The translations under genes and the position numbers were made by a program. A stretch of DNA of 64,000 nucleotides from Megamonas hypermegale (GTDB taxonomy: Bacteria; Bacillota; Negativicutes; Selenomonadales; Selenomonadaceae), in the NCBI RefSeq assembly GCF_900187035.1, contig NZ_LT906446.1, forward strand, positions 1,860,001 to 1,924,000, written 5' to 3'. Each line of letters opens with the position of its first letter. Position 1 is the first letter of the stretch. This document shows positions 40,382 to 56,181 of this stretch, piece by piece. The notes under the pieces were generated by a model. The model did no database searches. It was given only the letters and a program-made list of their open reading frames with translations, and was not told the origin of the DNA.

Positions 40382-40400
40382 AGTCCATCCCTCTTTTAAT

Positions 40401-40415
40401 TGATAATCATTATCA
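40401..40415. promoter_or_regulatory. Fur box (7-1-7)
   Basis: TGATAATCATTATCA is a perfect 7-1-7 inverted repeat identical to the classic Fur box core. It lies just downstream of the -10 and overlaps the early transcribed region of the DUF3793-flavodoxin operon, a repressing position. Confidence 0.9.
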
Positions 40416-40423
40416 TATTTGTA

Positions 40424-40452
40424 ATTATATAATAAATGAGACACATTTTCAA
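40424..40452 (-). promoter_or_regulatory. Promoter of the DUF3793-flavodoxin operon
   Basis: TTGAAA and TATAAT on the minus strand, 17-bp spacer, directly upstream of the Fur box. Confidence 0.85.
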
Positions 40453-40516
40453 TAAAAATTTTTATAAAATTAATATATAATAAAAAGTAGCTAAAATCTT
40501 ATCTGTAGGTGATACT

Positions 40517-41443
40517 ATGTATAAAAAACTATTATTCGACCAAAAATTAAATAGCGATACTGCTCTTTGTGAAATACTTCCACTGCTTCGTCAAAAAAAT
40601 TATGCAGTTGAATTTATAAATTTAGATAATGATACGCAAATAACCGACAAAGACACAAGTTTATTCATCGGTACAGATTTAGACAAGAACATTATCTGCC
40701 AAAAGTTAAAACTCGATTTTGGTTTAGCTACTTGGCAATGCAATTCAGTCAAACATATAAAGGCAAAATATTACTTTCGCCAACCATATGATATCTTAAA
40801 CTTACTGACTAGCATTGAAGAACCGTATAAAAATATGAAATGGCTTACTACGGCAATGGAGATGCAATTTATTGCTCAAGCAGGACTTGCCTATACAAAA
40901 GATAGATTTGACCATGAACGTTTTACTCGCTTAAGTGAAATGGCAGCAGAAATAATGGCTGAATATACTGATTTACCAAAAGAAAAAGTACAAAATCTCT
41001 TTTGCAATGAAACAGGATATCAAACACCAAAACTTGATACGCGCTCTGTAATTTTTAAAGATGATAAAATTTTGCTCGTCAAAGAAATAGATGGACGCTG
41101 GTCCATGCCAGGTGGCTGGGTAGATGTCAATCAATCTATCTGCGATAACCTCATTAAAGAAGCACGCGAAGAAGCAGGACTTAATGTCGTGCCAACACGT
41201 TTAGTTGCTATTCATGACCGCAATCGCCATAATACTCCGCTTTACGCATATGGCATCACTAAAATTTTCATGTTATGTGAAGTGGTCGATGGTCATTTTA
41301 ATCCTAATATAGAAACAAGCGAAAGCGCTTACTTTTCACTCGATAATCTGCCAAATCTTTCTGTTGGTAAAAATACAGAAGAACAAATTCGTTTATGTTT
41401 TGCTGCCTATAAAGATAAAAATTGGGTTCCTGTAATTGATTAA
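40517..41443 (+). CDS. NUDIX hydrolase with HAD-like N-terminal extension
   Basis: A 308-residue protein. Residues about 108-165 match the helical N-terminal region found in some NUDIX enzymes (WLTTAMEMQFIAQAGL), and residues about 175-300 form a NUDIX domain with box GGWVDVN..KEAREEAGL. In the box the first conserved acidic position is Gln, while EE is kept. Residues 1-95 resemble the second half of a HAD phosphatase (FIGTDLDKNIICQKL echoes the motif IV helix) but lack the DxDGT nucleophile. Substrate is probably a nucleoside diphosphate sugar; the role of the head is unknown. Confidence 0.83.
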   Translation: MYKKLLFDQKLNSDTALCEILPLLRQKNYAVEFINLDNDTQITDKDTSLFIGTDLDKNIICQKLKLDFGLATWQCNSVKHIKAKYYFRQPYDILNLLTSIEEPYKNMKWLTTAMEMQFIAQAGLAYTKDRFDHERFTRLSEMAAEIMAEYTDLPKEKVQNLFCNETGYQTPKLDTRSVIFKDDKILLVKEIDGRWSMPGGWVDVNQSICDNLIKEAREEAGLNVVPTRLVAIHDRNRHNTPLYAYGITKIFMLCEVVDGHFNPNIETSESAYFSLDNLPNLSVGKNTEEQIRLCFAAYKDKNWVPVID

Positions 41444-41452
41444 TGATTTATA

Positions 41453-41490
41453 AAAAAAGGCTTTGTATCTTAACTACAAGGCCTTTTTTA
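41453..41490 (+). terminator. Terminator of the NUDIX gene
   Basis: AAAAAGGCTTTGTA pairs, with one bulge, with TACAAGGCCTTTTT. Confidence 0.82.
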
Positions 41491-41568
41491 TAAAAATCAA
41501 TATAATTCAATTTGACTATATGTTATAATTAATAAGCAAAAAAATCTAAAAAGAAAAGATGTGATGTT

Positions 41569-42855
41569 TTGGACACAATGGCTTATGTAGCTATTGCAAT
41601 TTTTGTAATCGCTTATATTTTAATTATTTCCGAAAAAATCCAACGTACTGTTGTCGGTCTTACTGGCGCTATGTTAATGATTTTTGCAGGAATTTTGACT
41701 CAAGAACAAGCTATCCATCATATTGACTTCAATACCATCGGTTTACTCGCTGGTATGATGATTATCGTCAATATCACAAGTGAAACTGGCTTATTCAATT
41801 ATTTAGCTATTTGGTCAGCTAAAAAAGTCGAAGCCAATCCGATAAAACTGTTACTCGTTTTATCCGCACTTACTGCTATTTGTTCTGCATTCCTAGACAA
41901 TGTAACGACTGTATTATTAACTGTACCTGTTACATTCAGTATCACTTCACAATTAAAAGTACCAGTTCAACCATTCTTAGTTGCTCAAATACTCTCTTCA
42001 AATATCGGTGGTACAGCAACACTCATCGGGGACCCACCAAATATTATGATTGGTAGTGCTGTTCCTGAACTTGACTTTATGTCATTCATAACTAATTTAG
42101 GCGGCATATGTATTGTTATTTTCATCATAACAATGGCTATCTTAATTGCTATTTATCGCAAAAAATTAACTACTACACCTGAATTACAAGCTAAAATAAT
42201 GCAAATGAATGAAAAGAAAGAATTACGCGATACTACACTTTTGAAAAAATGTTTGATAGTTTTAGCACTCACAATTCTTACTTTTATGTTCCATTCTCAA
42301 CTTGGTTTAGAGTCTGCTTCTGTAGCACTTGGTGGTGCATCACTTCTGATGCTTATTTCCATCAGTACATATGAAGAATCCGTAGCTAAAATCTTAAGTA
42401 GATTAGAATGGCTTGCTATTTTCTTCTTTGTCGGTTTATTCGTATTAGTAGGCGGGCTAATGGAAACAGGCGTTATTAAAGCTATGGCAGTAGAAGCCTT
42501 CAATATCACAGACGGTGATGTTACAACAACTACCATGTTAATTTTATGGCTTAGCGCTATTGCTTCTGCTTTCATTGACAACATTCCATTCGTTGCCACT
42601 TTAATCCCAATGATAAAAGAAATGGGCGCTATGGGTATGACTAATCTCGAACCTTTATGGTGGGCTTTATCCCTTGGTGCTTGCTTAGGTGGTAATGGTA
42701 CTTTAATCGGTGCTAGTGCCAACGTAGTTGTAGCTGGTATGGCTAGTCAACACGGTCATAAAATTTCATTCATAAGTTATATGAAAATAGCATTTCCATT
42801 AATGATTTTATCAATCATTATTTCTAGCGCATACATTTATTTTAGATATCTTTAA
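41569..42855 (+). CDS. ArsB/NhaD-like anion or ion transporter
   Basis: A 428-residue member of the ion transporter superfamily, about eleven to twelve helices. Two inverted repeats each contain a conserved loop: SAFLDNVTTVLL with NIGGTATLIGDPPNIMIG, and SAFIDNIPFVATLIP with GGNGTLIGASANVV. Known relatives move arsenite, sodium or dicarboxylates; the substrate here cannot be assigned, and no ars genes are near. The TTG at 41569 and the ATG at 41578 are both possible starts; the RBS is weak. Confidence 0.85.
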   Translation: MDTMAYVAIAIFVIAYILIISEKIQRTVVGLTGAMLMIFAGILTQEQAIHHIDFNTIGLLAGMMIIVNITSETGLFNYLAIWSAKKVEANPIKLLLVLSALTAICSAFLDNVTTVLLTVPVTFSITSQLKVPVQPFLVAQILSSNIGGTATLIGDPPNIMIGSAVPELDFMSFITNLGGICIVIFIITMAILIAIYRKKLTTTPELQAKIMQMNEKKELRDTTLLKKCLIVLALTILTFMFHSQLGLESASVALGGASLLMLISISTYEESVAKILSRLEWLAIFFFVGLFVLVGGLMETGVIKAMAVEAFNITDGDVTTTTMLILWLSAIASAFIDNIPFVATLIPMIKEMGAMGMTNLEPLWWALSLGACLGGNGTLIGASANVVVAGMASQHGHKISFISYMKIAFPLMILSIIISSAYIYFRYL

Positions 42856-42876
42856 TAAACAAATATTTTACCGTTT

Positions 42877-42908
42877 AAAGAACAGGCAATATTGTCTGTT
42901 CTTTTTTA
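42877..42908 (+). terminator. Terminator after the transporter gene
   Basis: AAAGAACAGGCAAT pairs with ATTGTCTGTTCTTT, then T residues. Confidence 0.85.
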
Positions 42909-42996
42909 TTTTATTTTTATCAAAATACTTTTTTTATCATGATTCTCGCGGTATAATTTTTTCAGAAATAATTTGTTTAATAAGGAGAAAAGTTGT

Positions 42997-44805
42997 ATGA
43001 CAAAAACTGCTAAAGAATTACAAGAAGAAGGTTTATTATACGATGTATTCGATGAAGAATTAGCTTCTATAAAAGATAAAACATACGGTCTTGTAAATGA
43101 ATTAAGCCATGTTGATGCTTTAGATAAAACAACTGTTTTATCACTCGTAAATAAAATTGTCGGCAAATTTGGTACTGAAAGCTATATAGTACCACCATTC
43201 CGTTGTGATTACGGCCCTAATATCACAATTGGTGAACATTGTTTTATCAACTATAATTGCTGTTTTCTTGACTCAGCCAAAGTGACTATTGGCGATTATG
43301 TTTATATGGGACCAAATTGCAATATCTTCACACCTTGCCATCCTATTCATCATGAATTGCGTTGGGATAAAGTAACCGAATACGCTCTACCTGTAACAGT
43401 TGGTTCACACACTTGGATTGCTGGTGATGTAATCATAAATCCAGGCGTAACCATCGGCGAAGGCTGCGTTATCGGCGCTGGCTCTGTCGTAACAAAAGAT
43501 ATTCCAGATAACAGCCTTGCTGTCGGCAATCCTTGTAAAGTAATTCGACAACTCAATGAAGATGACAAAAAAATCGTTGAACAATTAACCCTAAATGATG
43601 ATACAAAAGATAATGTTTATAAACAAGAACACGGTTATATGTATTTTGTTATGGATAAGGCATTGCGCTCTCAAGTAGAAAACACAGTTCATTATGTAAA
43701 TATCTTGAATAAATTATCTAACAGCGAAATTCAGCGCCGCCGTGATTTCTTGCGTACATTTACCAAAAAATTCGATGAAGGAGCTATCATAAACAGTCCT
43801 TTTTATATGGAATTTGGCAATCACTTAGAAGTCGGTATCAATAGCATTATTGAGGGCGATTGCATAATGTTAAACAGCGGTCATATAAAAATCGGTGATA
43901 ATGTTTTAATTGGCCCTAAAACAAGCTTTTATACTCCAGTTCATCCATTTTTACCTGAGCAGCGTGAAACATGGATAGAGTACGCTAAACCTATTACTAT
44001 TGAAGATAATGTTTGGATTTGCGGTTCTGTAACGATTACTGGTGGCATCACCATCGGTGAAAATTCTATCATTTGTCCAGGAAGCGTCATCACTCATGAT
44101 GTACCTTCTAATACTATTGTTGCCGGAAATCCTGCCAAAGTAATCCGTAAAATCACTGAAGAAGATATCGCGCAATATAAACAAGAACTGGCTAAAGAAC
44201 AAAATACTACATTATCCGAAAAAGACAAAATGGAACAAGGTTATTGGTATAATACTTTTGATACCGAACTTATAAAATTACGCCAACAAAATGCTCCTAA
44301 AACAGAAGCTTATAGTAGAATATCTGCTAATACTCTTTGTTATAAAGATAAAATGGCAAAAGCCATCATAAATAATTTCGGTGAAAATGCCAATATAATA
44401 CCACCGTTTACTTGCACATACGGCAATAATATTTCTATCGGTGAAGCAACTATCGTAAATCACAATGGGGTATTCATTGATTCTAATAAAATAAATGTTG
44501 GCGCTCATGCTTTAATCGGTCCAAAATCTCTACTCAACTGCTCATTCCGCCCTTATGATATAGATGATAGAAATAATGGCATAGCTAAAACTTCCGCTAT
44601 AAATATCGGTGATGGGGCTTGGCTTGGTGGTAGAGTGACAGTATTACCTGGCATAACAATTGGCAAACACAGTGTAATCGGTTCTGGGTCAGTTGTAACA
44701 GAAAATATCCCTGATGATGTAGTAGCCGTTGGCAATCCTTGTAGAGTAATTCGCAAAATAACGGAAAAAGATAAACTCAATCCTTACAAAAATAAAAAAT
44801 CATAA
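42997..44805 (+). CDS. Triple-module hexapeptide (maltose/galactoside-type) acetyltransferase
   Basis: A 602-residue protein made of three consecutive copies of a maltose O-acetyltransferase-like unit, each normally a separate protein of about 185-210 residues. Each has a helical MAC-type head (ELQEEGLLYDVFDEEL, KQEHGYMYFVMDKAL, DKMEQGYWYNTFDTEL at about 8, 209 and 410) and a left-handed beta-helix with a closing GNPxxVIR. The catalytic histidine is present in modules 1 (His115, TPCHP) and 2 (His316, TPVHP) but replaced by Arg518 in module 3 (CSFRP). It probably acetylates a sugar. RBS AAGGAG before ATG 42997. Confidence 0.9.
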   Translation: MTKTAKELQEEGLLYDVFDEELASIKDKTYGLVNELSHVDALDKTTVLSLVNKIVGKFGTESYIVPPFRCDYGPNITIGEHCFINYNCCFLDSAKVTIGDYVYMGPNCNIFTPCHPIHHELRWDKVTEYALPVTVGSHTWIAGDVIINPGVTIGEGCVIGAGSVVTKDIPDNSLAVGNPCKVIRQLNEDDKKIVEQLTLNDDTKDNVYKQEHGYMYFVMDKALRSQVENTVHYVNILNKLSNSEIQRRRDFLRTFTKKFDEGAIINSPFYMEFGNHLEVGINSIIEGDCIMLNSGHIKIGDNVLIGPKTSFYTPVHPFLPEQRETWIEYAKPITIEDNVWICGSVTITGGITIGENSIICPGSVITHDVPSNTIVAGNPAKVIRKITEEDIAQYKQELAKEQNTTLSEKDKMEQGYWYNTFDTELIKLRQQNAPKTEAYSRISANTLCYKDKMAKAIINNFGENANIIPPFTCTYGNNISIGEATIVNHNGVFIDSNKINVGAHALIGPKSLLNCSFRPYDIDDRNNGIAKTSAINIGDGAWLGGRVTVLPGITIGKHSVIGSGSVVTENIPDDVVAVGNPCRVIRKITEKDKLNPYKNKKS

Positions 44806-44824
44806 TCTATCATTTTTAATTCAT

Positions 44825-44868
44825 AAAAAAGACACTTAATAGTAAATAACTACTAAGTGTCTTTTTAT
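44825..44868. terminator. Bidirectional terminator between the acetyltransferase and dacF
   Basis: Long stem AAAAAAGACACTTA with TAAGTGTCTTTTT plus an inner TAGTA/TACTA, with A and T tracts on the two sides. Confidence 0.9.
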
Positions 44869-44874
44869 TTTTTA

Positions 44875-46113
44875 TCAATATACATACTGTGCCAATAATG
44901 GATTAGTTTCTTCTGGAGCTGTTGTTTCACTCGTGCTCACATCTGTTGCTACATCAGAAGCAGTTTCAACATTTTCTTCATTATTATTTCTACCATTATT
45001 TATGTTATCATCTACATCATTAGATGCTTCTGTATTTGTAACTATCTTTTTAGTTGTATTTGTATCTTTTACTTTAGTTTCTTGTTTTTCAACTTTTTCT
45101 TCAACTGGTTGTTGAACTACATCCGCATCGTTTACCGTTTCACCATTCAAATTTTTGGCTTTACTGGCAATAGCAGCATCTAAAGCTGCTAAATTTTTAT
45201 TTGTTTCTCTACTATATTTTATTCTCTGTTCAGTAATTTTATTTAATTTAATTGTACTCGGTTTTACTACCGTTCTATCTTGCAATTCACTAGCGTCATA
45301 AAAACTAAAACCAAATTCCAACCATGCGGGTGCATCATCCCAACGATAATCATCATTATAAAATACAGCAATCATAGTTTTTAATCCTCTTGTAGCTGAA
45401 GCAACCAAACAATCACCTGCTGCATTAGTAAAACCTGTCTTTATACCGTTTGCTCCAGGAAAACCACTTTTTAAGAAACGATTGGTAGTTGTAACATATT
45501 TTGTACTACCATCCATGTATTTCATATTATAGGAAGTTCTTCCTACCATTTCTCTAAATAACGGATTTTTCATAGCATATGAAGCAATTATCGCCATATC
45601 ATGCGCTGTTGAATAATGGCCTTGTGCCGTCAATCCATGTGGATTAACAAAATGCGTGCGATATGCTCCTAATTCTTGAGCTTTATCATTCATCATTTTA
45701 GCAAATTCTGGAACAGAACCCGCTACTGTTTCAGCCACTGCTACAGCCGCATCATTACCTGATACTAAAAGCATTCCAGCTAATGCTTCACGTAAAGTAA
45801 TTTGGTCACCCATTCTAAGACCTAAAGAAGACGGTTCTGTATTTACAGCATTTCTAGAAATGACAAGCGGTTCATCTAATTTGCCACTTTCTAAGGCTAT
45901 AATTGCTGTCATTATCTTTGTCGTACTAGCCGGTGGCATTATTCTATCTTCATCTTTGCCATATAAGACACCATTATCATCCGCATCTATAAGACAAGCA
46001 GATACAGCACCAGTATCTGGATTTGGCAATGGCGCAGCAGCTGCCATTGCGCTAAAAATCAACATAAAACTTATCAATAAAGCACTTATTTTCTTTTTCA
46101 AAAACATCAACAT
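44875..46113 (-). CDS. dacF: D-alanyl-D-alanine carboxypeptidase (S11, PBP5-like)
   Basis: A 412-residue exported enzyme that trims peptidoglycan stem peptides. A signal peptide (1-27, KKK then hydrophobic to AAAAAP) leads to SxxK at ASTTK, SGN in VSGNDAA and KTG in IKTGFTN. After about residue 300 comes an extended low-complexity tail rich in Asn, Glu, Asp and Thr, in place of a clear membrane anchor helix. It follows metA by 15 bp and is probably cotranscribed. The symbol is by family resemblance only. Confidence 0.9.
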   Translation of the reverse strand: MLMFLKKKISALLISFMLIFSAMAAAAPLPNPDTGAVSACLIDADDNGVLYGKDEDRIMPPASTTKIMTAIIALESGKLDEPLVISRNAVNTEPSSLGLRMGDQITLREALAGMLLVSGNDAAVAVAETVAGSVPEFAKMMNDKAQELGAYRTHFVNPHGLTAQGHYSTAHDMAIIASYAMKNPLFREMVGRTSYNMKYMDGSTKYVTTTNRFLKSGFPGANGIKTGFTNAAGDCLVASATRGLKTMIAVFYNDDYRWDDAPAWLEFGFSFYDASELQDRTVVKPSTIKLNKITEQRIKYSRETNKNLAALDAAIASKAKNLNGETVNDADVVQQPVEEKVEKQETKVKDTNTTKKIVTNTEASNDVDDNINNGRNNNEENVETASDVATDVSTSETTAPEETNPLLAQYVY

Positions 46114-46128
46114 TTCGCTTCTTTCTAA

Positions 46129-47067
46129 CTATTTGCCACTTTTACGTGGTTCTTTTTTCAAATTATCAATATCATACGGTGTTTCTTGATATACATAATA
46201 ATTAAGCCAATTATTAAACAACAAATTAGCTACACTACGCCAACGGACAATAGGTTCTTTCGTTGGGTCATCATCTGGATAATAATTTATAGGAATGTGC
46301 ATATCCATGCCCGCTTTAATATCACGGTCATATTCACTTTTCAAGCTATATGGGTCATATTCAGCATGACCTGTGATGAAAAATTCATTATCCTTTAAAT
46401 TAGCAACGATATAGACACCAGCATCGCCTTCTGCCATGATAGTTAAATCATCTACTTTTTCTATATCTTCACGTTTTATGCTAATATGACGAGAATGTGG
46501 CACATAAAATTCATCATCAAAACCACGGAATAATTTTTCATTTTTTACGTTTAAATGATGTTTAAACACACCAAAAACTTTTTTACGTTCATAATATTTT
46601 TTTATACCATAATGGTGATACAGCCCTGCAAATGCGCCCCAACAAATATGGAAAGTTGACCAAACGTGGCTGCGACTCCAATCCATAATTTCACATACTT
46701 CATTCCAATATGCTACATCTTCATATTCCATACGTTCAACTGGTGCTCCAGTAATTATAAAACCATCATAAAATTTATCTCTTACATCTTCAAAAGTTCC
46801 ATAAAACTGAGATAAATATTGAATAGATGTGTGTTTTGGTAAATATGATTCCGTATATATAAAATCCACTTCAATCTGTAGTGGTGTATTTCCTAAAAGT
46901 CGCAAAAGTTGTGTTTCCGTAACAGTCTTATTTGGCATTAAATTTAAAATCAAAATTTTAAGCGGACGAATGTCTTGTTTATAAGCTCGTTCCGTGTCCA
47001 TTACGAAAATATTTTCACTTTCTAATATTTGTGCAGCTGGTAAACTGCTGGGAATTTTAATAGGCAT
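46129..47067 (-). CDS. metA: Homoserine O-acyltransferase MetA (predicted acetyl-CoA user)
   Basis: A 312-residue MetA-family enzyme, first committed step of methionine synthesis. Catalytic Cys142 is in HICWGAF, and the histidine-glutamate pair in GHAEYD. Residue 111 is Glu (GAPVE), the position that in Bacillus MetA selects acetyl-CoA over succinyl-CoA, so an O-acetyltransferase is predicted despite the usual annotation as succinyltransferase. It has its own promoter and a perfect palindrome at the transcript start, and is followed by dacF. Confidence 0.94.
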
Positions 47068-47094
47068 AGTATCACAACCCTTTCTTCTACAATA

Positions 47095-47120
47095 AAGCTC
47101 CCTTATGCATAAGGGAGCTT
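47095..47120. promoter_or_regulatory. 26-bp perfect palindrome at the metA transcript start
   Basis: The 13-bp half AAGCTCCCTTATG is followed at once by its exact reverse complement. It begins about where the metA transcript should start and ends 27 bp before the ATG. In RNA it would form a hairpin; as DNA it could be an operator. A weak T tract follows on the plus strand. No SAM or SAH riboswitch was recognised. Confidence 0.75.
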
Positions 47121-47127
47121 GTTTTCA

Positions 47128-47156
47128 ATTCTATCACAGGCATTTTTGCACGTCAA
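47128..47156 (-). promoter_or_regulatory. Promoter of metA-dacF
   Basis: TTGACG and TAGAAT on the minus strand with a 17-bp spacer; predicted start near 47121. Confidence 0.82.
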
Positions 47157-47321
47157 TTAATGTAGGCAATATCATTCGTCTTCATGCTAAAACTCCTAGT
47201 AATGTGATATAATTATCCAAAGTACTCTAAAACTCCTGTTTTAATGTAAATATATAAAAGATATTTCTAATTTATACAATTTACTAGAGTTTAAAGATAC
47301 TTCTAAGAAAGGATTTTTATT

Positions 47322-49508
47322 ATGTTAGAACAAAATATCATACCGCAGCTTGCCCAATTACTGCAATTAAAAACTAATCAAGTAGAAGCTGCTGTAAAAT
47401 TGCTAGATGAAAGCAATACTATTCCCTTTATTGCTCGCTATCGCAAAGAAGCAACAGGAGCAATGAAAGACGAACAACTTCGTGAACTTGATGAAAAACT
47501 CACTTATCTACGCAATTTAATCAAACGTCAAAAAGAAATAAAAAACAGTATTGAAGAACAAGGCAAAATGACCGAAGAGTTATCTCTTGCCATCGATAAA
47601 GTACAAAAATTACAAGACTTAGAAGATATCTATCTACCATATAAGCAAAAAAAACGTACTCGTGCTATGATTGCCAAGGAAAAAGGTCTTGAACCTTTGG
47701 CACAAACAATCTGGGCACAAGAATTGCAAAAAGGTGATATATCTTCACTAGCTAGTGATTATTTAAATGAAACTGTTACCTCTATTGATGATGCACTTGC
47801 TGGTGCAAATGATATCATTGCAGAAATGATTTCTGATAAAGCTGATATACGTGCCCAACTTCGTAAACACATTTGGCAATCCGGTCAACTTTCTGTATCT
47901 TATAACAGCGAACTTGATACAGAAGGAACTTTCTCTATGTATGAAGATTATATCGAACCAATTCGTACACTTCCTTCACACCGTATTTTAGCGATAAATC
48001 GCGGTGAAAAAAAAGAAATCTTAAAAGTAAAGCTTATATCTGATACAGATAAAGACATTCAAACTATAAGTAAATTTGTCATCACTAATAAATCCATTTT
48101 TGATGATTTTTTAATCACTGCGATAACAGATGCTTATAAACGCCTTATTTTTCCTGCACTAGAAAGAGAAATTCGCAATCAGCTGACAGAAAACGCAGAA
48201 AAACAAGCTATAACAGTATTCGCTTCTAACTTAAAACAATTACTATTACAAGCTCCGCTTGCAGGTCATACAGTAATGGGCTTAGACCCTGGCTATCGCA
48301 CTGGTTGTAAAATGGCAATAATTGACGCTACTGGGCAAGTTTTAGACCATGGCGTTTTGTATATAACGATGAGCGATGAAGCCAAACAAAAATCTGCTAC
48401 AAATCTCTTAAACTGGATAAAAAAATACAATGTTGATTTAATTTCCATCGGCAATGGTACAGCCTCATATGAAACAGAAGAATTTGTCGCTAATTTAATC
48501 CATGAACACAATTTACCTATTCACTATTTGATTACTAATGAAGCTGGAGCTTCCGTATATTCAGCCTCTAAATTAGCCATTGAAGAATTACCTGATTTTG
48601 ATGTTACCATTCGCGGTGCAGTTTCCATCGCGCGCCGCATTCAAGACCCATTAGCTGAACTTGTAAAAATTGAACCAAAAGCAATCGGTGTCGGTCAATA
48701 TCAACACGATGTCAATCAAAAAGAATTATCTCAGACATTAGATGCTGTAATTGAAACGGCTGTAAACCATGTCGGTGTAGAATTAAACACTGCTTCCGTT
48801 GCCCTTTTAAAACACATTGCTGGTATTAATGCCACTGTTGCTAAAAACATCATTAAATATCGCGAAGAACACGGTGCCTTTAAATCACGCAAAGAATTAT
48901 TAAAGGTTTCACGCTTAGGGCCAAATACATTTACCCAATGTGCTGGTTTTTTGCGAATTAATAATGCCGCTTTAGCTTTAGATAATACTTCCGTTCACCC
49001 TGAATCATATCCATTAGCTGAAAAAATACTTCAAAAACTCGGCTTTTCACTTTCTGATTTAAGCGATAAACACCAATTAGAACAATTAAAAATAAAACTA
49101 AAACTGCTCGATATTGAAAAACTTGCCGCTGATTTAAATGCTGGCATACCTACTGTCACTGATATTTTAGAAGCACTTACTAAACCAGGTCGTGACCCAC
49201 GCGAAGATTTACCTGCACCGCTGACTCGTCAAAATATCGTCAAATTAGAAGACATAAAACCAGGCACTATCATGCGTGGCACTGTTCGCAATATTACTGA
49301 TTTTGGCGTTTTCGTTGATATCGGCATAAAAACAGCTGGATTTATTCATATTTCTGAGCTTAGTAAGCGTTTTATAAAACATCCTTTAGACGTTGTATCT
49401 GTAGGTGATATCTTAAATGTAATCGTCATAAGTGTTGACCCTAAACGCAATCGTATTGGACTAAGCCTAAAACAAGTACCAAAGGAGAAAAATCATGTCC
49501 CTGCTTAA
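47322..49508 (+). CDS. tex: Tex-family RNA-binding transcription accessory protein
   Basis: A 728-residue Tex protein in the usual order: N-terminal helical region with IARYRKEATG, a YqgF/RNase H-like domain (DPGYRTGCKMA near 325), helix-hairpin-helix repeats (about 490-570) and a C-terminal S1 domain (about 645-715, GTIMRGTVRNITDFGVFVDIG). It binds nucleic acid and affects transcription and stress tolerance. RBS AAAGGA. Its end overlaps the cobT-like gene by 14 bp, so both are likely cotranscribed. Confidence 0.95.
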   Translation: MLEQNIIPQLAQLLQLKTNQVEAAVKLLDESNTIPFIARYRKEATGAMKDEQLRELDEKLTYLRNLIKRQKEIKNSIEEQGKMTEELSLAIDKVQKLQDLEDIYLPYKQKKRTRAMIAKEKGLEPLAQTIWAQELQKGDISSLASDYLNETVTSIDDALAGANDIIAEMISDKADIRAQLRKHIWQSGQLSVSYNSELDTEGTFSMYEDYIEPIRTLPSHRILAINRGEKKEILKVKLISDTDKDIQTISKFVITNKSIFDDFLITAITDAYKRLIFPALEREIRNQLTENAEKQAITVFASNLKQLLLQAPLAGHTVMGLDPGYRTGCKMAIIDATGQVLDHGVLYITMSDEAKQKSATNLLNWIKKYNVDLISIGNGTASYETEEFVANLIHEHNLPIHYLITNEAGASVYSASKLAIEELPDFDVTIRGAVSIARRIQDPLAELVKIEPKAIGVGQYQHDVNQKELSQTLDAVIETAVNHVGVELNTASVALLKHIAGINATVAKNIIKYREEHGAFKSRKELLKVSRLGPNTFTQCAGFLRINNAALALDNTSVHPESYPLAEKILQKLGFSLSDLSDKHQLEQLKIKLKLLDIEKLAADLNAGIPTVTDILEALTKPGRDPREDLPAPLTRQNIVKLEDIKPGTIMRGTVRNITDFGVFVDIGIKTAGFIHISELSKRFIKHPLDVVSVGDILNVIVISVDPKRNRIGLSLKQVPKEKNHVPA

Positions 49509-51414
49509 TCAAACTATAAAGAAGATAATGCCACCTGACCAACGCGCTATTAAATTTGTAAAAAATAAATTATCTCAAACTATGACTAATCCTGATGGAT
49601 TAGGTGAATTACAAAATATCTTATTGCGCTATGTTGGTATCACAGGACAAATAAAACCAGAAATCCCAAAAAAATTGACTATAATAACCTGTGCTGACCA
49701 TGGCGTAGCTGAAATGAATGTCAGTGCTTATCCGCAAGAAACAACCGCACATATGACACGTAATTATCTCGTCTCTAAAGGCGCTGTAGCTAATTCTATG
49801 TCCAATTTTTGCGGTTCTGATATGATTGTTGTTGACATGGGTATAAAAGCTCCTGTTGATGATATTCCAGGTCTTATCGACCATAAAATCGCTCCAGGCA
49901 CTAATAACTGCGCTAAAGGCCCTGCTATGACACGTGAACAAGCTATCGAAGCTATTGAAACAGGAATACAACTTGTAAATACGTACGCAAATAAAGGTTA
50001 TTGTTGCTTTTTACCTGGTGAAATGGGCATAGCCAATACCACTTCTAGCGCTGCCATCGTAGCTTGTCTTTGCAATTTAACGCCAAAACAAGCCACAGGT
50101 CGCGGTACAAATATTTCTGATGAAAGATTAGCTATAAAAATAGATGTCGTAAAACAAGCTTTAACTGTAAATAAACCAGACCCTACAGACGGGCTTGATG
50201 TCATGAGTAAAATAGGCGGATTTGAACTTGCTTGTATAACAGGCATAATACTAGGTGCCGCTGCAAATCACTGCTTTGTTGTCTTAGATGGTTTTAATAC
50301 TGGTTCAGCAGCATTAGTAGCACAAGCTATTTGCCCTGAAGTTACAAACTATCTGATGGCTTCTCATTTAGCAGCAGAACCCGCTCACAACGCCATATTA
50401 AAAAAGCTTAACTTATCACCTTATATGGATTTAAAATTTCGTCTTGGCGAAGCTACAGGTTCCTCAATCGCCGTAAACATCTTAGACTGTGCTATAAAAA
50501 CTTATCATTCTGTCTGTCAAGCTGCCCTAGCAGAAAAAGACAAATTGATAAAACCAAACATTCCTACAACAGATTTCGATACGAAAATGGCATTATTAAA
50601 ACAAGTACGCAATATCACTTTGCCAGACGAAGTAGCACGTGAAAAATGTAGAAATCGCATAGATAACTTGACTAAACCAATTTACAGTTTAGGTAAATTA
50701 GAAAATATAGCTGAAAATATTGCGGGAATTACACGACAAAAAAAACCAACTCAAGTTCGCAAAAAAATTCTTGTAATCACACCACAAGAAAGTTGCAGTG
50801 TTGTTCAGCATCGTTTGACACAAGCTTTTGCTTCTCATGCTAATGCAAATTATCATTTTACATCTATTCCTAAAAATTTAATGAAACCTCAAACCTTATC
50901 ATTTAGCTTATTACAAGGTATTTGCTACGGTTCTAAAATAAACAATATAGATGTTTTGGGTATCGCTTGTTGTGAAAATCATCCCAAAGAAATATGTGGA
51001 ACATTTAGTTTAACTATTAAACAACAACTTTGCAATTTTGATAATTCACTGCGCTATAGCAAACGCAAATTTTTATCATTAGAACCAAATCCTTATCTAT
51101 GTCAAATAGCATTTATGGCTGGCATAGCAATCGGTGCGGCAAGTAAAGGTATACTTGTTTTATCCGATGATATTCCATCTAGCATTGCTATCCGTTATGC
51201 ACTTCTTTTAGCGCCAACTATCAATCCTTATATCATGTTCGTTTGCCCAGATTATCTCAATTTGCATATCACAACAGGTGGTGGCTGCATCTGTGCTTTA
51301 GGCATGAAATTGATTGACGCTTCATTGCAAATGCTAAAAGATATGAAGACATTTGCTGAGGCTGATGTTGCTATTGCTAATGATGGCCCTGGAGCAAAAA
51401 TACAAACAAAGTAA
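49495..51414 (+). CDS. Fused double CobT-family phosphoribosyltransferase (candidate single-chain ArsAB)
   Basis: A 639-residue protein, nearly twice the usual 350. Residues 1-350 are a CobT domain with ADHGVAE, SAYPQETT and the catalytic Glu319 in RLGEATG, but with a decayed N-terminal motif (MTNPDGLGEL). Residues about 375-639 are a second copy with a good N-terminal motif (LTKPIYSLGKLE, 392-403) but ITTGGG where the catalytic Glu should be. CobT activates the lower ligand of cobamides. Tandem CobT homologues ArsA and ArsB of Sporomusa and Veillonella do this for phenol and p-cresol as a heterodimer; here the two are in one chain. RBS AAAGGAG. Confidence 0.85.
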   Translation: MSLLNQTIKKIMPPDQRAIKFVKNKLSQTMTNPDGLGELQNILLRYVGITGQIKPEIPKKLTIITCADHGVAEMNVSAYPQETTAHMTRNYLVSKGAVANSMSNFCGSDMIVVDMGIKAPVDDIPGLIDHKIAPGTNNCAKGPAMTREQAIEAIETGIQLVNTYANKGYCCFLPGEMGIANTTSSAAIVACLCNLTPKQATGRGTNISDERLAIKIDVVKQALTVNKPDPTDGLDVMSKIGGFELACITGIILGAAANHCFVVLDGFNTGSAALVAQAICPEVTNYLMASHLAAEPAHNAILKKLNLSPYMDLKFRLGEATGSSIAVNILDCAIKTYHSVCQAALAEKDKLIKPNIPTTDFDTKMALLKQVRNITLPDEVAREKCRNRIDNLTKPIYSLGKLENIAENIAGITRQKKPTQVRKKILVITPQESCSVVQHRLTQAFASHANANYHFTSIPKNLMKPQTLSFSLLQGICYGSKINNIDVLGIACCENHPKEICGTFSLTIKQQLCNFDNSLRYSKRKFLSLEPNPYLCQIAFMAGIAIGAASKGILVLSDDIPSSIAIRYALLLAPTINPYIMFVCPDYLNLHITTGGGCICALGMKLIDASLQMLKDMKTFAEADVAIANDGPGAKIQTK

Positions 51415-51418
51415 TAAA

Positions 51419-51434
51419 TGTTTCACGTGAAACA
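51419..51434. promoter_or_regulatory. parS: parS centromere site (ParB/Spo0J binding)
   Basis: TGTTTCACGTGAAACA is a perfect 16-bp palindrome identical to the parS consensus bound by ParB/Spo0J. It lies in the gap between the double CobT gene and the LysR gene. It implies that this region is close to the chromosomal origin. Confidence 0.95.
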
Positions 51435-51502
51435 TAATCTATTGCTAAAAATGATAAAATGTCTTAATATCATTATTAACAATAAAAAAATGGGGAATAA
51501 TT

Positions 51503-52387
51503 ATGACTTTACGACATTTAGCTATATTTATTAGAGTATGTGAAGAAAACGGCATAACAGCTGCTGCAAAAAAACTTCATATGACACAGCCTTCTGTTAG
51601 TCAAGTAATTCAAGAACTAGAGGCTCATTATCAAACACTTTTATTCGAACGTCTCGGTCGCCGAATTTTTATTACGGAAGCCGGTCGTCGCTTACTGCGT
51701 TATTCACGCAATCTGATAAACTTAAATTTGCAAACTGAACAAGCCATGCGTGCCTTTAATGAAGTTTATCATTTACGACTTGGTGCTAGTATCACTATTG
51801 GCAGTAGCATTTTAATAAATTTAATCAAACATATCACTGAAAATGACCCTTCTAAAGAAATTTTCTCGGAAATACACAATACATCCGAACTAGAAGAAAT
51901 GCTTTTAAATGATAATTTAGATTTAGCCCTCGTTGAAGGTGAAATTCACTCTGAATATCTTATTACTAAACCATTTATGGATGATGAACTTGTTTTCATC
52001 ATTAGCAAAAATCATCCACTTGCTAATAAAAAAATAACCTATGATGACCTAGCTAAATTAAAATTCTTCATTCGTGAAACAGGCAGTGGCACACGCGAAT
52101 TATTTGAACAAGTAATGCATCAACACAATGTTTATTATCAAACAGGTGGCATCTACAACAGCATGGAAGCTATAAAAAAAGCTGTTATTGCAGGTCTAGG
52201 TGTTTCTGTAATCTCCACAGAAGCCATAAAAGATGATTTAGATGCGCATAATTTAATAGCTTTTACTATGCCTGATTTAGTATTTAAACGCCAATTTAAT
52301 ATCGTTTATCACAAAAATAAATTTATTCCACCTGAAATGCAAGAAGTAATTGATATCTGCTTAAATTTAAAAAAAGAACTTAAATAA
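51503..52387 (+). CDS. LysR-family transcriptional regulator
   Basis: A 294-residue LTTR with the winged HTH at residues 1-60 (ENGITAAAKKLHMTQPSVSQVIQELE) and a substrate-binding domain from about 90. The FIRETGSGTRELFE segment resembles CysL/CbbR-like members that bind small anions or sulfur compounds. The RBS is modest (GGGGAA). It does not face a divergent target gene; its neighbours are the double CobT gene and the Mn riboswitch-terC unit, so the target is unknown. Confidence 0.88.
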   Translation: MTLRHLAIFIRVCEENGITAAAKKLHMTQPSVSQVIQELEAHYQTLLFERLGRRIFITEAGRRLLRYSRNLINLNLQTEQAMRAFNEVYHLRLGASITIGSSILINLIKHITENDPSKEIFSEIHNTSELEEMLLNDNLDLALVEGEIHSEYLITKPFMDDELVFIISKNHPLANKKITYDDLAKLKFFIRETGSGTRELFEQVMHQHNVYYQTGGIYNSMEAIKKAVIAGLGVSVISTEAIKDDLDAHNLIAFTMPDLVFKRQFNIVYHKNKFIPPEMQEVIDICLNLKKELK

Positions 52388-52406
52388 AATTTTACCTGTT
52401 TTTCAT

Positions 52407-52436
52407 TTGACAAAATAAATACTTATCAGATATAAT
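52407..52436 (+). promoter_or_regulatory. Promoter of the riboswitch-terC transcript
   Basis: TTGACA and TATAAT with an 18-bp spacer; predicted start near 52443, immediately before the aptamer. Confidence 0.9.
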
Positions 52437-52447
52437 CTAACCATGAT

Positions 52448-52584
52448 ATTAAAGGGGAGTAACTTCCTAGAGTTATTGTCAACAATCACTGTAGCTTTTA
52501 GCTTCTGGCAATAACATCGAACATATTTCGATAAGTGAGACTTTTAATACGCATATTATCTATGTGTATTAAAAGTCTTTTTTT
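52448..52584 (+). ncRNA. yybP-ykoY manganese riboswitch with terminator
   Basis: The aptamer opens AAAGGGGAGTAACTT and continues with TCAACAATCACTGTAGCTTT and a pairing GGCAATAACATCGAAC segment, the conserved landmarks of the yybP-ykoY Mn2+ sensor. It ends in an 18-bp terminator stem (52538-52555 with 52561-52578) and seven T residues. Mn binding should prevent termination and switch on terC, a member of the gene family most often found behind this element. Confidence 0.92.
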
Positions 52585-52617
52585 GTGCTCAAAACATTCA
52601 AGGAAAAGGAGATATCT

Positions 52618-53292
52618 ATGGAAATCTTATCAACTCAATTTTTATTTGCACTTGGTTCTATTATCTTATTAGACTTAGTATTAGCCGGCGATAATGCCGT
52701 TGTAATCGCTATGGCTTCAAGAAAACTACCTGAAAGCCTGCGAAGAAGAGCTATTTACGTCGGTACAGCTGGTGCCGTTGTCATTCGCGCTTTAATGACA
52801 CTTATCGCAACATATCTTTTAACCATTCCATTTTTACAAGCAATCGGTGGTTTAATCTTACTGCCAATCGCATTTAACTTGTTAAAACCAAATAAACACA
52901 GCTTAGATGAAGCTAATAAATTTGAAGCTTCCAGTAATTTTGCTACAGCTATTAAAACAATCATAATTGCCGATGCAGCCATGGGTATTGATAACGTTTT
53001 AGCTATCGCTGGTGCTGCACATGGCAATATGATACTCGTATTAACAGGACTTGCCATCAGCATTCCAATCGTTGTCTGGGGTAGCCAAATTATTTCCAAT
53101 TTGATGGATAGATTACCTATTTTAATCACTATTGGTTCTGCTATTTTAGCTTATACTTCTGCTACAATGATTTTACATGATAAAATAGTTGGTTCTTTCT
53201 TATTAAATTTAACTAACTACATGAATTATATCTTACCTGTAATCTTCATCGCTTCCATTGTCATTTATAGCCGAAAAGTTGCTGTTAAATAA
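52618..53292 (+). CDS. TerC/YkoY-family manganese exporter
   Basis: A 224-residue membrane protein with about seven helices. Conserved acidic motifs DLVLAGDNAVVIAMA (helix 1) and DAAMGIDNVLAIAGAA (mid-protein) are those of the TerC metal exporters. The Mn riboswitch in its leader supports manganese export. The ATG at 52618 follows AAGGAG; an upstream frame from 52585 would read into the terminator and is not used. Confidence 0.93.
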   Translation: MEILSTQFLFALGSIILLDLVLAGDNAVVIAMASRKLPESLRRRAIYVGTAGAVVIRALMTLIATYLLTIPFLQAIGGLILLPIAFNLLKPNKHSLDEANKFEASSNFATAIKTIIIADAAMGIDNVLAIAGAAHGNMILVLTGLAISIPIVVWGSQIISNLMDRLPILITIGSAILAYTSATMILHDKIVGSFLLNLTNYMNYILPVIFIASIVIYSRKVAVK

Positions 53293-53312
53293 TTAAAATC
53301 AATAAATTTAAC

Positions 53313-53347
53313 AAAAAAGGATACTGCTATAAGTAGTATCCTTTTTA
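53313..53347 (+). terminator. Terminator after terC
   Basis: AAAAAGGATAC pairs with GTATCCTTTTT. Confidence 0.85.
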
Positions 53348-53456
53348 TTTAAAAGGTATATCTTAATATATCAAAGGTAAATATATATTTTCTTATTGCT
53401 ATACATAAACGGAAATGATAAAATAATAAAGATATAAGTCTTGTGGAGGATGAAAA

Positions 53457-54722
53457 TTGGAAAAGTTGATTATACATGGCGGTCATGAATTGCATGGTCG
53501 TGTTAAAATTAGCGGTGCAAAAAACGCTGTACTTCCTATAATTGCTGCAACTCTTCTGGCCCAGGATAAGCCATGTGTTTTAGACGAAGTTCCTTACTTA
53601 AACGACGTCTGCACAATAGCTGAAGTTCTGCGTCAGCTCGGCGCTAAAGTCAACTTCAATCGTGATGAACACACTCTGTCGATTGACAGTACCGTACTTA
53701 AAACGGTTGATGCGCCTTACGATTTAGTTCGCAAAATGAGAGCTTCCTTTGTTATAATGGGACCTCTTTTAGCTCGCTATGGCAAGGCAAAAATTTCCAT
53801 GCCTGGGGGCTGTGCTATCGGAACACGTCCGATTGACTTACATTTAAAAGGCTTCGAAGCTCTTGGAGCGGAAATTGAAATCGGCCACGGCTTTATCAAT
53901 GCTACTGCACCAAATGGGCTTAAAGGTACTAGTATCTATCTCGATTTTCCAAGTGTAGGAGCTACAGAAAATATCATGATGGCTGCTTGTATGGCAGAAG
54001 GCCAAACTATTTTGGAAAATGCTGCTCAAGAACCAGAAATTATCGATTTAGCTAATTTCTTAAACATCATGGGTGCCAAAATTCGCGGTGCTGGTACTAA
54101 TGTAATAAAAATTACAGGCGTACCAAAACTTATAGGTCATAATTATACTATTATTCCAGACCGTATTGAAGCTGGTACATACATGGTAGCTGTAGCTATG
54201 ACTGGTGGAGATATCTATATAGAAAACGCTATCAGTGAGCATTTAAAACCTGTTATCGCTAAATTAAACGAAGCAGGCGTAACAATTCAAGAAGATATTG
54301 ATGGTATCCGTGTTAGCTGTAACAAGCGCCCCAAAGCCATTGATATCAAAACATTGCCATATCCTGGTTTCCCAACCGATATGCAAGCTCAATTCATGGC
54401 AATGCTCACAATAGCTGACGGAACAGGATTTGTTACTGAAACCGTTTTCGAAAATCGCTTTATGCACGTAGATGAATTAAAGCGTATGGGAGCTGTAATC
54501 CGAGTTGACGGACGCACTGCTATTGTAGATGGCGTACCAAAACTCACAGGTTGCCAAGTAAAAGCTACCGACTTGCGTGCTGGTGCTGCTATGGTTCTTG
54601 CAGGCCTTGTAGCTAGCGGTGAAACTCAAGTATCTTATATTCACCATATAGACAGAGGATACGATAATCTCGTTGCAAAACTCTGTGGTCTCGGTGCTGA
54701 TATTCGCCGTGTGGACAATTAA
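53457..54722 (+). CDS. murA: UDP-N-acetylglucosamine 1-carboxyvinyltransferase
   Basis: A 421-residue EPSP-synthase-fold enzyme for the first committed step of peptidoglycan synthesis. Catalytic Cys119 is in [10 protein letters not shown], so the enzyme should be fosfomycin-sensitive in principle. [20 protein letters not shown] and [12 protein letters not shown] are typical. The start is a TTG at 53457 with GGAGG upstream; no in-frame ATG is close. Monocistronic, with a terminator. Confidence 0.96.
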
Positions 54723-54742
54723 TTAAAGCTTTATAAGTAAAT

Positions 54743-54778
54743 AAATGGTCAAGATTTTCTATCTTGGCCATTTTTTTA
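54743..54778 (+). terminator. Terminator after murA
   Basis: AATGGTCAAGAT pairs with ATCTTGGCCATT (one G-U), then seven T residues. Confidence 0.88.
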
Positions 54779-54808
54779 TAAAAAAATTAGATGATTAGAG
54801 GTGTTATT

Positions 54809-55894
54809 ATGTTATGTACTAAAGAAAAATGTACTGGCTGTCTATCTTGTCTAAATATCTGCCCTAAAAATGCCATAAAAGCTATCACAGATGAACAAGG
54901 TTTTTGGCAAATGCAGATTGACGAAACAAAATGTATTAAATGCAAGCTCTGTCAAAAATCCTGTCCTGCACTCTTTAAACCCAATATAACTGATTTAGTT
55001 TCTAAAGTATATGCATGCTGGCATAAAGATAAAGCAAAACGCCAACAAGCAGCTTCTGGTGGATTATTCACTGCACTAATGCAAAATGCTCTAAAACATA
55101 ATTATTTTGTTTGCGGTGCTACTTTGACAAGTGATATGCAAGTAAAACATATCATAATCGACAAAATAGAAGATTATAAATTGCTAGTCGGTTCAAAATA
55201 CGTTCAAAGTAATTTAACAAACACATTTAAACAGATACGAGCACTTCTTTTAAAAGGTAATAAAGTATTATTTAGCGGTACACCTTGCCAAGTATCAGGA
55301 TTGTATACTTTTCTAAAAAAGAGATATGAAAACCAATTGTTCACTGTAGATTTATTATGTCATGGTGTTCCCTCACCTGAGATATTCAAAAAATACATTG
55401 CCCACATGGAACAACTTTATGATGATAAATTAATCAATTTTCAATTTCGCCATAAACCAGGTTGGCGTCGCTATCAAGTAATTTTAGAATTTACCAGTGG
55501 AAAACAAGATATAACATACAAAGACACCAGCCCATATATTCGTGGATTTTTAAAAGGCAATTTTCTTCGCCCTTCATGTTACGATTGTGATTATACATCT
55601 CTTAAACGATATAGCGATTTGACTATCGGCGATTTTTGGAATTACTTTGCTGATAATTCCACTGATATTGATGATGATAAAGGTATTTCCTTCATGTTAA
55701 TCAACAATGAAAACGGCAAAGCATTATTCGATTTAGCCAAAGATGATTTATTTTATCTAGCAAAAGACTTCAATCGCTCTACTTCTACTAGCCCTAGACT
55801 ACACAAACCAACAAAAAAACCTGCCACTTATGAACAATTTTGGCAGGATTATAACAATAAAGACTTTGAAAATATTATAAAAGAATATTTCTAA
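54809..55894 (+). CDS. FrhB/FdhB-like iron-sulfur oxidoreductase subunit
   Basis: A 361-residue protein with two N-terminal 4Fe-4S motifs (CTGCLSCLNICP and CIKCKLCQKSCP, residues 9-53) followed by the coenzyme F420 hydrogenase beta-subunit N and C domains (ASGGLFTALM, FSGTPCQVSGLY, LLCHGVPSPEIF, DLTIGDFW). Such proteins are flavin-linked oxidoreductases often tied to polysaccharide or ferredoxin metabolism; F420 itself is not expected in this organism. ATG 54809 has GAGGTG upstream and is preferred over ATG 54791. No partner gene adjoins. Confidence 0.88.
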   Translation: MLCTKEKCTGCLSCLNICPKNAIKAITDEQGFWQMQIDETKCIKCKLCQKSCPALFKPNITDLVSKVYACWHKDKAKRQQAASGGLFTALMQNALKHNYFVCGATLTSDMQVKHIIIDKIEDYKLLVGSKYVQSNLTNTFKQIRALLLKGNKVLFSGTPCQVSGLYTFLKKRYENQLFTVDLLCHGVPSPEIFKKYIAHMEQLYDDKLINFQFRHKPGWRRYQVILEFTSGKQDITYKDTSPYIRGFLKGNFLRPSCYDCDYTSLKRYSDLTIGDFWNYFADNSTDIDDDKGISFMLINNENGKALFDLAKDDLFYLAKDFNRSTSTSPRLHKPTKKPATYEQFWQDYNNKDFENIIKEYF

Positions 55895-55896
55895 CG

Positions 55897-55929
55897 AAAA
55901 AAGCCGGTACAAAATTGTATCGGCTTTTA
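55897..55929. terminator. Bidirectional terminator between the FrhB-like gene and rpsR
   Basis: AAAAAAGCCGGTAC pairs with GTATCGGCTTTT between convergent genes. Confidence 0.88.
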
Positions 55930-55941
55930 CTATCATATTTA

Positions 55942-56181
55942 TTATTCAGCTGTGAAAGGTAAAAGAGCGATGTTACGAGCTCTTTTAATTGCAACTGTAA
56001 CTTGACGCTGATGGCAAGCACAGTTACCAGAAATACGACGAGGTAAAATTTTACCGCGTTCAGTAATGAAACGACGGAGTTTTGCTACGTCTTTATAATC
56101 AATATGTTCGATTTTATCTGCACAGAAGCTGCAAACTTTTCTTTTTGGTCTTCTGTTTCTATCGCGTTTAACCAATGTCAT
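55942..56181 (-). CDS. rpsR: 30S ribosomal protein S18 (C+ zinc type)
   Basis: A 79-residue S18. The cysteines in CSFC and CACH match the zinc-ribbon C+ form of the protein. Core [17 protein letters not shown] and [10 protein letters not shown] are typical. Last gene of rpsF-ssb-rpsR; RBS AGGAGGG. Confidence 0.96.

Follow-up and report, generated by a model that had tools for sequence, protein, structure and literature searches.

We describe a 639-codon gene of Megamonas hypermegale (Bacillota; Negativicutes; Selenomonadaceae) that joins, in one reading frame, homologues of ArsA and ArsB, the two CobT-related chains of Sporomusa ovata ArsAB. The gene, called arsAB here, lies in a stretch of 64,000 nucleotides (assembly GCF_900187035.1, contig NZ_LT906446.1, positions 1,860,001 to 1,924,000 of the forward strand), which as a whole is referred to as the window and sets the numbering used below. 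Phylogenetic trees place the two halves of its product in the ArsA and ArsB clades, the motifs lost from one half are retained in the other, and the chain is predicted to fold into a single body. We consider it likely that the protein is a natural ArsA-ArsB fusion, acting as a nicotinate mononucleotide (NaMN):base phosphoribosyltransferase with one working site per chain and built as an intramolecular pseudo-dimer. As far as the searchable literature shows, the one-chain form, its spread through the family, its repeated origin and the paring-down of its ArsB part are new. Literature searches, made over openly licensed PMC papers, retrieved nothing on a fused ArsAB among titles and abstracts; the primary ArsAB papers lie outside that set, and a prior mention is possible.

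Organisation of the arsAB gene

The gene occupies a single plus-strand frame, 49495-51414, of 639 codons with no internal stop. A sequence-only reading of the window had placed two CobT-related halves in this frame and had picked out three motifs, RLGEATG, LTKPIYSLG and ITTGGG. The frame and the motifs were found as described, and neither a stop nor a frameshift that would separate two genes is present. The parts of the gene are listed below with their window coordinates and strand.

49495-51414, plus strand: arsAB fusion gene, 639 amino acids (aa); unbroken frame, halves in the ArsA and ArsB clades
49481-49487, plus strand: AAAGGAG, Shine-Dalgarno-like sequence 5' of the start codon, within the end of tex (sequence reading)
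49495-50529, plus strand: ArsA half, residues 1-345, phosphoribosyltransferase core intact (PDB match 4hdk_A; model fit 4hdr_A)
49585-49611, plus strand: TNPDGLGEL, the degenerate counterpart of LTKPxxSLG near the N-terminus of the ArsA half (sequence reading)
49723-49755, plus strand: SAYPQETTAHM, with Tyr and Met at the places of Ser80 and Gln88 of Salmonella enterica CobT; not diagnostic, common in sampled ordinary CobTs
50014-50043, plus strand: PGEMGIANTT, whose Glu and Met correspond to Glu174 and Leu175 of S. enterica CobT (residue alignment)
50440-50460, plus strand: RLGEATG, residues 316-322, with the catalytic Glu319 (codon 50449-50451) at the place of S. enterica CobT Glu317; Glu in 50/50 fused A halves
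50530-50610, plus strand: linker, residues 346-372, mostly of lower model confidence (predicted local distance difference test, pLDDT, about 70 to residue 370; AlphaFold2 model)
50587-50589, plus strand: in-frame ATG near the homologous ArsB start, with no Shine-Dalgarno-like sequence ahead of it (sequence reading)
50611-51411, plus strand: ArsB half, residues 373-639 (ArsB clade, 100/100, starred; PDB match 4hdk_B)
50668-50694, plus strand: LTKPIYSLG, residues 392-400, retained ArsB N-terminal motif; KPxxSL-type in 50/50 fused B halves
50749-51285, plus strand: eroded core of the ArsB half (residues 419-597), where pairwise identity averages 0.26 over 419-540 and 0.39 over 541-597, against 0.51-0.54 at the ends
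51268-51285, plus strand: ITTGGG, residues 592-597, without the Glu found at this place in S. ovata ArsB and CobT (LGEGTG or LGEGSG; motif comparison)
51286-51402, plus strand: retained ArsB C-terminal helix and tail, residues 598-636, with DMKTFAEA and NDGPGA; M[KRS][TS]F in 50/50 fused B halves

The two halves belong to the ArsA and ArsB clades

The Pfam family DBI_PRT matched the whole chain with 441.6 bits, half A alone with 374.9 bits and half B alone with 80.3 bits. In the PDB, the best match of half A was S. ovata ArsA (4hdk_A, 379 bits, CobT reaching at most 224), and that of half B was S. ovata ArsB (4hdk_B, 94 bits, CobT 40). Half B measures about 270 aa, some 80 fewer than the 350 of S. 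ovata ArsB, and phmmer aligned it with ArsB over two end stretches only (residues 9-69 and 169-271 of the 271-aa piece); it is not a full CobT, which corrects the sequence-only reading of a double CobT.

The proposal of a natural ArsA-ArsB fusion was upheld by the trees, in which the two halves did not both group with ordinary CobT. A quick tree of 99 rows placed half A in a clade of 61 rows that also holds S. ovata ArsA and the other 49 fused A halves (SH-like approximate likelihood ratio test, SH-aLRT, 99, starred). In a careful tree of 50 rows the fused A halves and the split ArsAs grouped together (100/99, starred), and the 17 sampled fused B halves fell with nine split ArsBs on one side of a branch, with CobT and ArsA on the other (100/100, starred).

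Sequencing error as the cause of the fusion is excluded, because in 33 relatives of the same family, too, one frame gives both the A and the B match, and one further relative has a shorter form (read by eye). An ordinary CobT chain carries the core, the catalytic Glu and both end motifs; here the A half is without the end motifs, and the B half is without the Glu and part of the core. The locus also lacks the two adjacent cobT genes by which a survey (PMC6461909, cited, like the other PMC papers below, from excerpts) recognised such systems, a criterion that defines the gene layout and not the enzyme. Judged by its sequence, the chain is a fused ArsAB and not two ordinary CobTs; by ancestry it is ArsAB and it probably acts as one, and the only tested feature in which it departs is the two-gene layout.

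Reciprocal loss and retention of motifs

Motifs were counted over 50 fusions, two duplicates having been dropped. The KPxxSL-type N-terminal motif was present in all 50 fused B halves; in the A halves the pattern occurred twice (2/50), both times as a chance match on reading. The C-terminal motif M[KRS][TS]F was likewise present in 50/50 fused B halves, and M[AKRSN][TS][FY] in none of the 50 A-half ends plus linkers. The catalytic Glu was found in every fused A half, and Gly stands at that place in the B half of the window protein. Mean pairwise identity in the A half was 0.575 over the core and 0.284 and 0.208 at the ends; in the B half it was 0.511 and 0.537 at the ends and 0.261 and 0.393 over the core. 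In the Pectinatus-type fusions (477-478 aa) the B half is down to 121-129 aa, essentially its two ends.

The split proteins were scored in the same way. The KP motif was present in five and the C motif in one of nine split ArsAs, and in nine and eight, respectively, of nine split ArsBs; the one split ArsB without the C motif is truncated by a contig end. On these counts the trend of motif loss has already begun in the split ArsAs. The complementary decay of the halves and the loss of LTKPxxSLG from the first, both put forward in the sequence-only reading, are thus correct as observations, but the decay is partly inherited from the split ArsA/ArsB pair and the loss did not arise in this chain, S. 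ovata ArsA already having VLQSAGSLG.

Two further shortened forms were seen. Four Quinella-type loci (L059, L064, L087 and L101) have an ArsA half without its N-terminal ~55 residues and retain the ArsB end motifs. A still shorter fusion, read by eye, occurs in genome G018 of the same family (L045, contig 83, about 1200-2661); this arsAB-like form of 394 aa has no ArsA N-terminus and an ArsB remnant of roughly 100 aa, and the DNA immediately upstream of it resembles, by eye, the end of a tyrosine recombinase gene. Either a minimal enzyme or a copy in decay could explain it. That Pectinatus and G018 lost the ArsB core independently was considered and could not be demonstrated (p value of the approximately unbiased test, p-AU, 0.064 for one clade; G018 forms a very long branch).

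Structure predictions and comparison with known enzymes

Modelling of the chain as an intramolecular dimer, which the sequence-only reading had suggested, was carried out with AlphaFold2. The window protein (32 aligned sequences) gave a pLDDT of 93.2 and a predicted template modelling score (pTM) of 0.94, and the 478-aa Pectinatus form (28 sequences) gave 94.8 and 0.95. Both forms being modelled with confident pLDDT and pTM, their two halves are therefore predicted to be placed confidently in one body. Fold searches, which kept one best chain per entry, gave mainly A-half matches and did not cover the ArsB half alone.

Both halves are orthologous to S. ovata ArsAB (PDB 4hdk, 4hdm, 4hdn, 4hdr, 4hds), and the model of the A half matched ArsA (4hdr_A) with Z 51.5 and a root-mean-square deviation (rmsd) of 1.7 over 335 aligned residues at 51% identity. 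As in the fusion, the N-terminal KP motif is lost in S. ovata ArsA and retained in ArsB. The fusion differs in being one chain and not two, in its shorter ArsB part and in the loss of the ArsB Glu, which S. ovata ArsB retains (LGEGTG). S. enterica CobT (PDB 1d0s, 1jh8, 4kq series) has the same core fold, with the Glu174 and Glu317 places. It is a dimer of like chains, each with the core and the end motifs, in which the base pocket is formed by both chains, the partner completing it (PMC9561151); the ArsB half may be likened to that partner, and one site per chain is predicted for the fusion.

In the archaeal CobT of Methanocaldococcus jannaschii (PDB 3l0z, 6pt8, 6pu6) the base pocket is formed by a single chain, which has one CobT domain, is about 15% identical to the fusion, and uses Asp52 as general base (PMC9561151). 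Archaeal CobT aligned with the window model between residues 38 and 619 (Z 28.1, 290 aligned, rmsd 2.8) and with the Pectinatus model between residues 42 and 456 (Z 26.3, 290 aligned, rmsd 2.9), these spans being given by their first and last residues. Both alignments begin in the ArsA core and stop within the C-terminal end of ArsB, which fits a proposed arrangement with the ArsB end pieces over the ArsA pocket. A covalent union of CobT with another lower-ligand step is likewise found in the BluB/CobT2 fusion of Propionibacterium freudenreichii (626 aa; PMC4657239); that protein joins 5,6-dimethylbenzimidazole (DMB) synthesis to activation, whereas the present fusion joins two CobT paralogues.

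Proposed mechanism and alternative explanations

From these features we infer a one-site mechanism. The ArsA half, with its NaMN-binding core and Glu319 as general base, would bind NaMN and the base. The N-terminal KPxxSLG helices of ArsB and its C-terminal MKTF...DGPGA tail would close the ArsA base pocket, by analogy with the partner chain in homodimeric CobT, and the product would be the alpha-riboside phosphate of a cobamide lower ligand. The ArsB core would be a relic which, with no site of its own to serve, is free to erode.

Several observations weigh against this explanation. The superpositions of archaeal CobT made by Foldseek itself were poor (rmsd 5.3-9.4). The ArsB core of the window protein still folds confidently in the model, and a structural or regulatory role of that core is possible. 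A Glu is retained near the lost ArsB place in some fusions outside the family (L012, L024, L032), the B half of the window protein has a letter make-up that is unusual for the tree model, and no activity data were found for any fused form.

The same facts could be read as those of an ArsB half that is a decaying passenger, with the ArsA half working alone or as an A-A dimer between chains. The eroded core, the Glu lost in the window protein and the near disappearance of the core in Pectinatus agree with this; even decay would then be expected, yet both ends are retained in 50/50 fusions and are what the A half lacks, and we regard the passenger explanation as unlikely. We give still less credence to the production of a second protein, a free ArsB, from an internal start at the ATG at 50587. 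Although this codon is in frame and near the homologous ArsB start, no Shine-Dalgarno-like sequence stands before it, and in the alignment, read by eye, the Met is present in L031 and absent from rows such as L002, L003 and L012. A recent tandem duplication that fused two ordinary CobTs, unrelated to ArsAB, might be suspected from the NCBIfam equivalog model for cobT (TIGR03160; cut-off 319), which labels half A as CobT with 357 bits and matches the whole chain with 414; this model does not separate ArsA from CobT, and in the trees one half is joined by S. ovata ArsA and the other by ArsB, in clades that are old and distinct, which leaves such an origin a negligible chance. An ArsA-ArsB fusion with one working site per chain is the explanation that we prefer.

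Lower ligand and host pathway

In the M. hypermegale genome, among the cobamide-pathway genes looked for, proteins over the NCBIfam cut-offs were found for cobU, cobS, cbiJ, cbiH, cbiF, cbiT, cbiE, cbiD, cbiA and cobQ, and cbiC-, cbiG- and cobC-type proteins were found below theirs; one methylmalonyl-CoA mutase-type gene is also present. A second CobT was not found in this genome by a search with the arsAB protein, which matched this locus only. The genome has four matches to PF02277, as many as there are stretches in the arsAB protein, and the two listed lie in arsAB, which on these sequence matches is taken as the sole CobT homologue of the genome.

The ligand was approached through the pocket and through possible sources of the base. 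Tyr, Met and Met, at the places of residues 80, 88 and 175, are all present in the ArsA half, and the Tyr80/Met88/Met175 set is that changed in an engineered CobT crystallised with p-cresol (titles of 4kqj and 4kqk). As proof of phenol use these residues were rejected, being common in 16 ordinary CobTs, a sample picked by likeness to the query and possibly biased. For comparison, seven second CobTs of the same class have Tyr in 0/7, Met88 in 0/7, with Gln at 88, and Met175 in 7/7.

Characterised ArsAB orthologues attach phenol and p-cresol (PMC6461909, PMC8123684), and Veillonella parvula ArsAB prefers phenolic bases (PMC4657239). Because of these orthologues, and because the genome yielded no CobT homologue besides arsAB, we lean towards a phenolic ligand, phenol or p-cresol. 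ThiH, which releases p-cresol (PMC9046217), is present in the genome (519.5 bits, cut-off 380) and is a possible internal source of it; no match to tyrosine phenol-lyase, a phenol source, was found there. Two points limit the case for a phenolic ligand. Only 15 of 37 family genomes have ThiH over its cut-off, so a ThiH-derived p-cresol supply cannot be general; and the sampled ordinary CobTs themselves have Tyr in 7/16, Met88 in 13/16 and Met175 in 14/16, so that the pocket set does not decide for phenolics.

The same fused enzyme might instead work with a benzimidazole, DMB or adenine, which we hold to be a serious if less probable case. It draws on the pocket residues just described, shared with many ordinary CobTs, and on reports that DMB or other benzimidazoles can be activated by ArsAB (review PMC8123684; the title of structure 4hdr, ArsAB with DMB). 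Against it stand the p-cresol-releasing ThiH and the results for BluB and BzaB. BluB was not found over the cut-off in any of 60 genomes, in which only nitroreductase-like matches below it were seen (best match in M. hypermegale 34.1 bits, cut-off 150). The one ThiC-like protein of M. hypermegale scored 642 bits against the thiC cut-off of 460 and 639 against the BzaB cut-off of 700, and thus scores as an ordinary ThiC.

Distribution and origin of the fusion

The sample comprised 60 related genomes, M. hypermegale included, of which 37 belong to its family. The fusion was found in 35 of the 37, again counting M. hypermegale: 34 show both matches, A and B, in a single frame, and G018 has the shorter form. 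Of the other two, G031 is truncated by the end of its contig, and G026, which is 82% complete, gave no match. Named members with the fusion include Schwartzia, Pectinatus cerevisiiphilus, Pectinatus brassicae, Anaerovibrio and Quinella besides further Selenomonadaceae; NCBI ranks place Quinella in Veillonellaceae. In a class-wide sample (n=200, overlapping the first), all 45 family genomes had an ArsA match in a frame of at least 486 aa, a score of frame length in which the ArsB part was not checked for genomes first seen there.

Outside the family (23 genomes), seven genomes carry a fusion (G037, G040, G042, G045, G049, G051, G052) and nine carry split ArsA and ArsB (G041, G046, G047, G048, G053, G054, G055, G057, G059). 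In five more, A-like and B-like genes flank cobS, by coordinates (G038, G043, G044, G050, G058); G039 has other CobTs and G056 none. In G054, too, cobS lies between the split ArsA and ArsB genes, and the arrangement in these six genomes suggests that the pair arose by duplication of cobT around cobS.

An origin tree was built from joined ArsA and ArsB (31 rows, 20 fused representatives and 11 split). On it, the distribution of the fused state takes four changes to explain, of which starred branches force three or more, and a single origin in the class was rejected (p-AU 0.006 for one fused clade); on this sequence evidence the fusion therefore probably arose repeatedly in the class. One origin fits the clade of the window protein (17 fused rows, 100/98). 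The split outgroups point to fusion, and not splitting, as the direction of change.

A wider course of events, to which we give even odds, would lead from a two-site dimeric enzyme to a one-site single chain through gene duplication, a split of tasks between the copies, repeated fusion and removal of the inactive core, with the lid now in cis, and would make the Selenomonadaceae unrecognised makers of phenolyl cobamides. As part of that same reading, its stages would survive in living relatives of one class: an intact pair with cobS between the genes, split ArsA and ArsB, the fusion with an eroded core, and the Pectinatus and 394-aa forms, with little beyond the lid. The fused series would then illustrate how a dimer can lose one of its sites and how the inactive half shrinks until only what the remaining site needs is left.

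Phenolyl cobamides make up 16% in human faeces and 20-34% in the bovine rumen, and only two producers are known, according to the excerpts of PMC8123684; a table of 15 species in it contains no Selenomonas, Megamonas, Schwartzia or Pectinatus. The survey mentioned above credited a species with the capacity for phenolyl cobamides only if its genome had two cobT genes annotated side by side, and listed 27 species (PMC6461909). A one-chain ArsAB, present across a family with rumen members, is invisible to such a two-gene search and offers a testable candidate for the missing producers; if the wider reading is true, the fused forms would make the Selenomonadaceae unrecognised sources of these cobamides in rumen and gut.

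Neighbouring genes and other observations

The upstream neighbour of arsAB was named by reading, without a family search:

47322-49508, plus strand: tex, overlapping arsAB by 14 bases

In 28 of 52 fused loci (that of the window and two duplicates counted) the fused gene directly follows a tex homologue, though the functions seem unrelated. N-terminal extensions of ~180 residues in L029 and L042 were considered as extra domains and rejected; a tex match lies directly upstream of both frames, and the extensions read as tex DNA in another frame. Rfam, run at the gathering threshold over window positions 40000-56000, gave no match, so that no cobalamin riboswitch was seen there. In L076, L083, L085, L091 and other Streptomyces loci, a CobT homologue ends very long open frames of about 670-1970 aa, which are either true fusions or open-frame artefacts of high GC content. 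Elsewhere in the window, a single frame of 610 aa (42973-44805, plus strand) apparently holds three tandem O-acetyltransferase units of the maltose/galactoside type, named by reading only.

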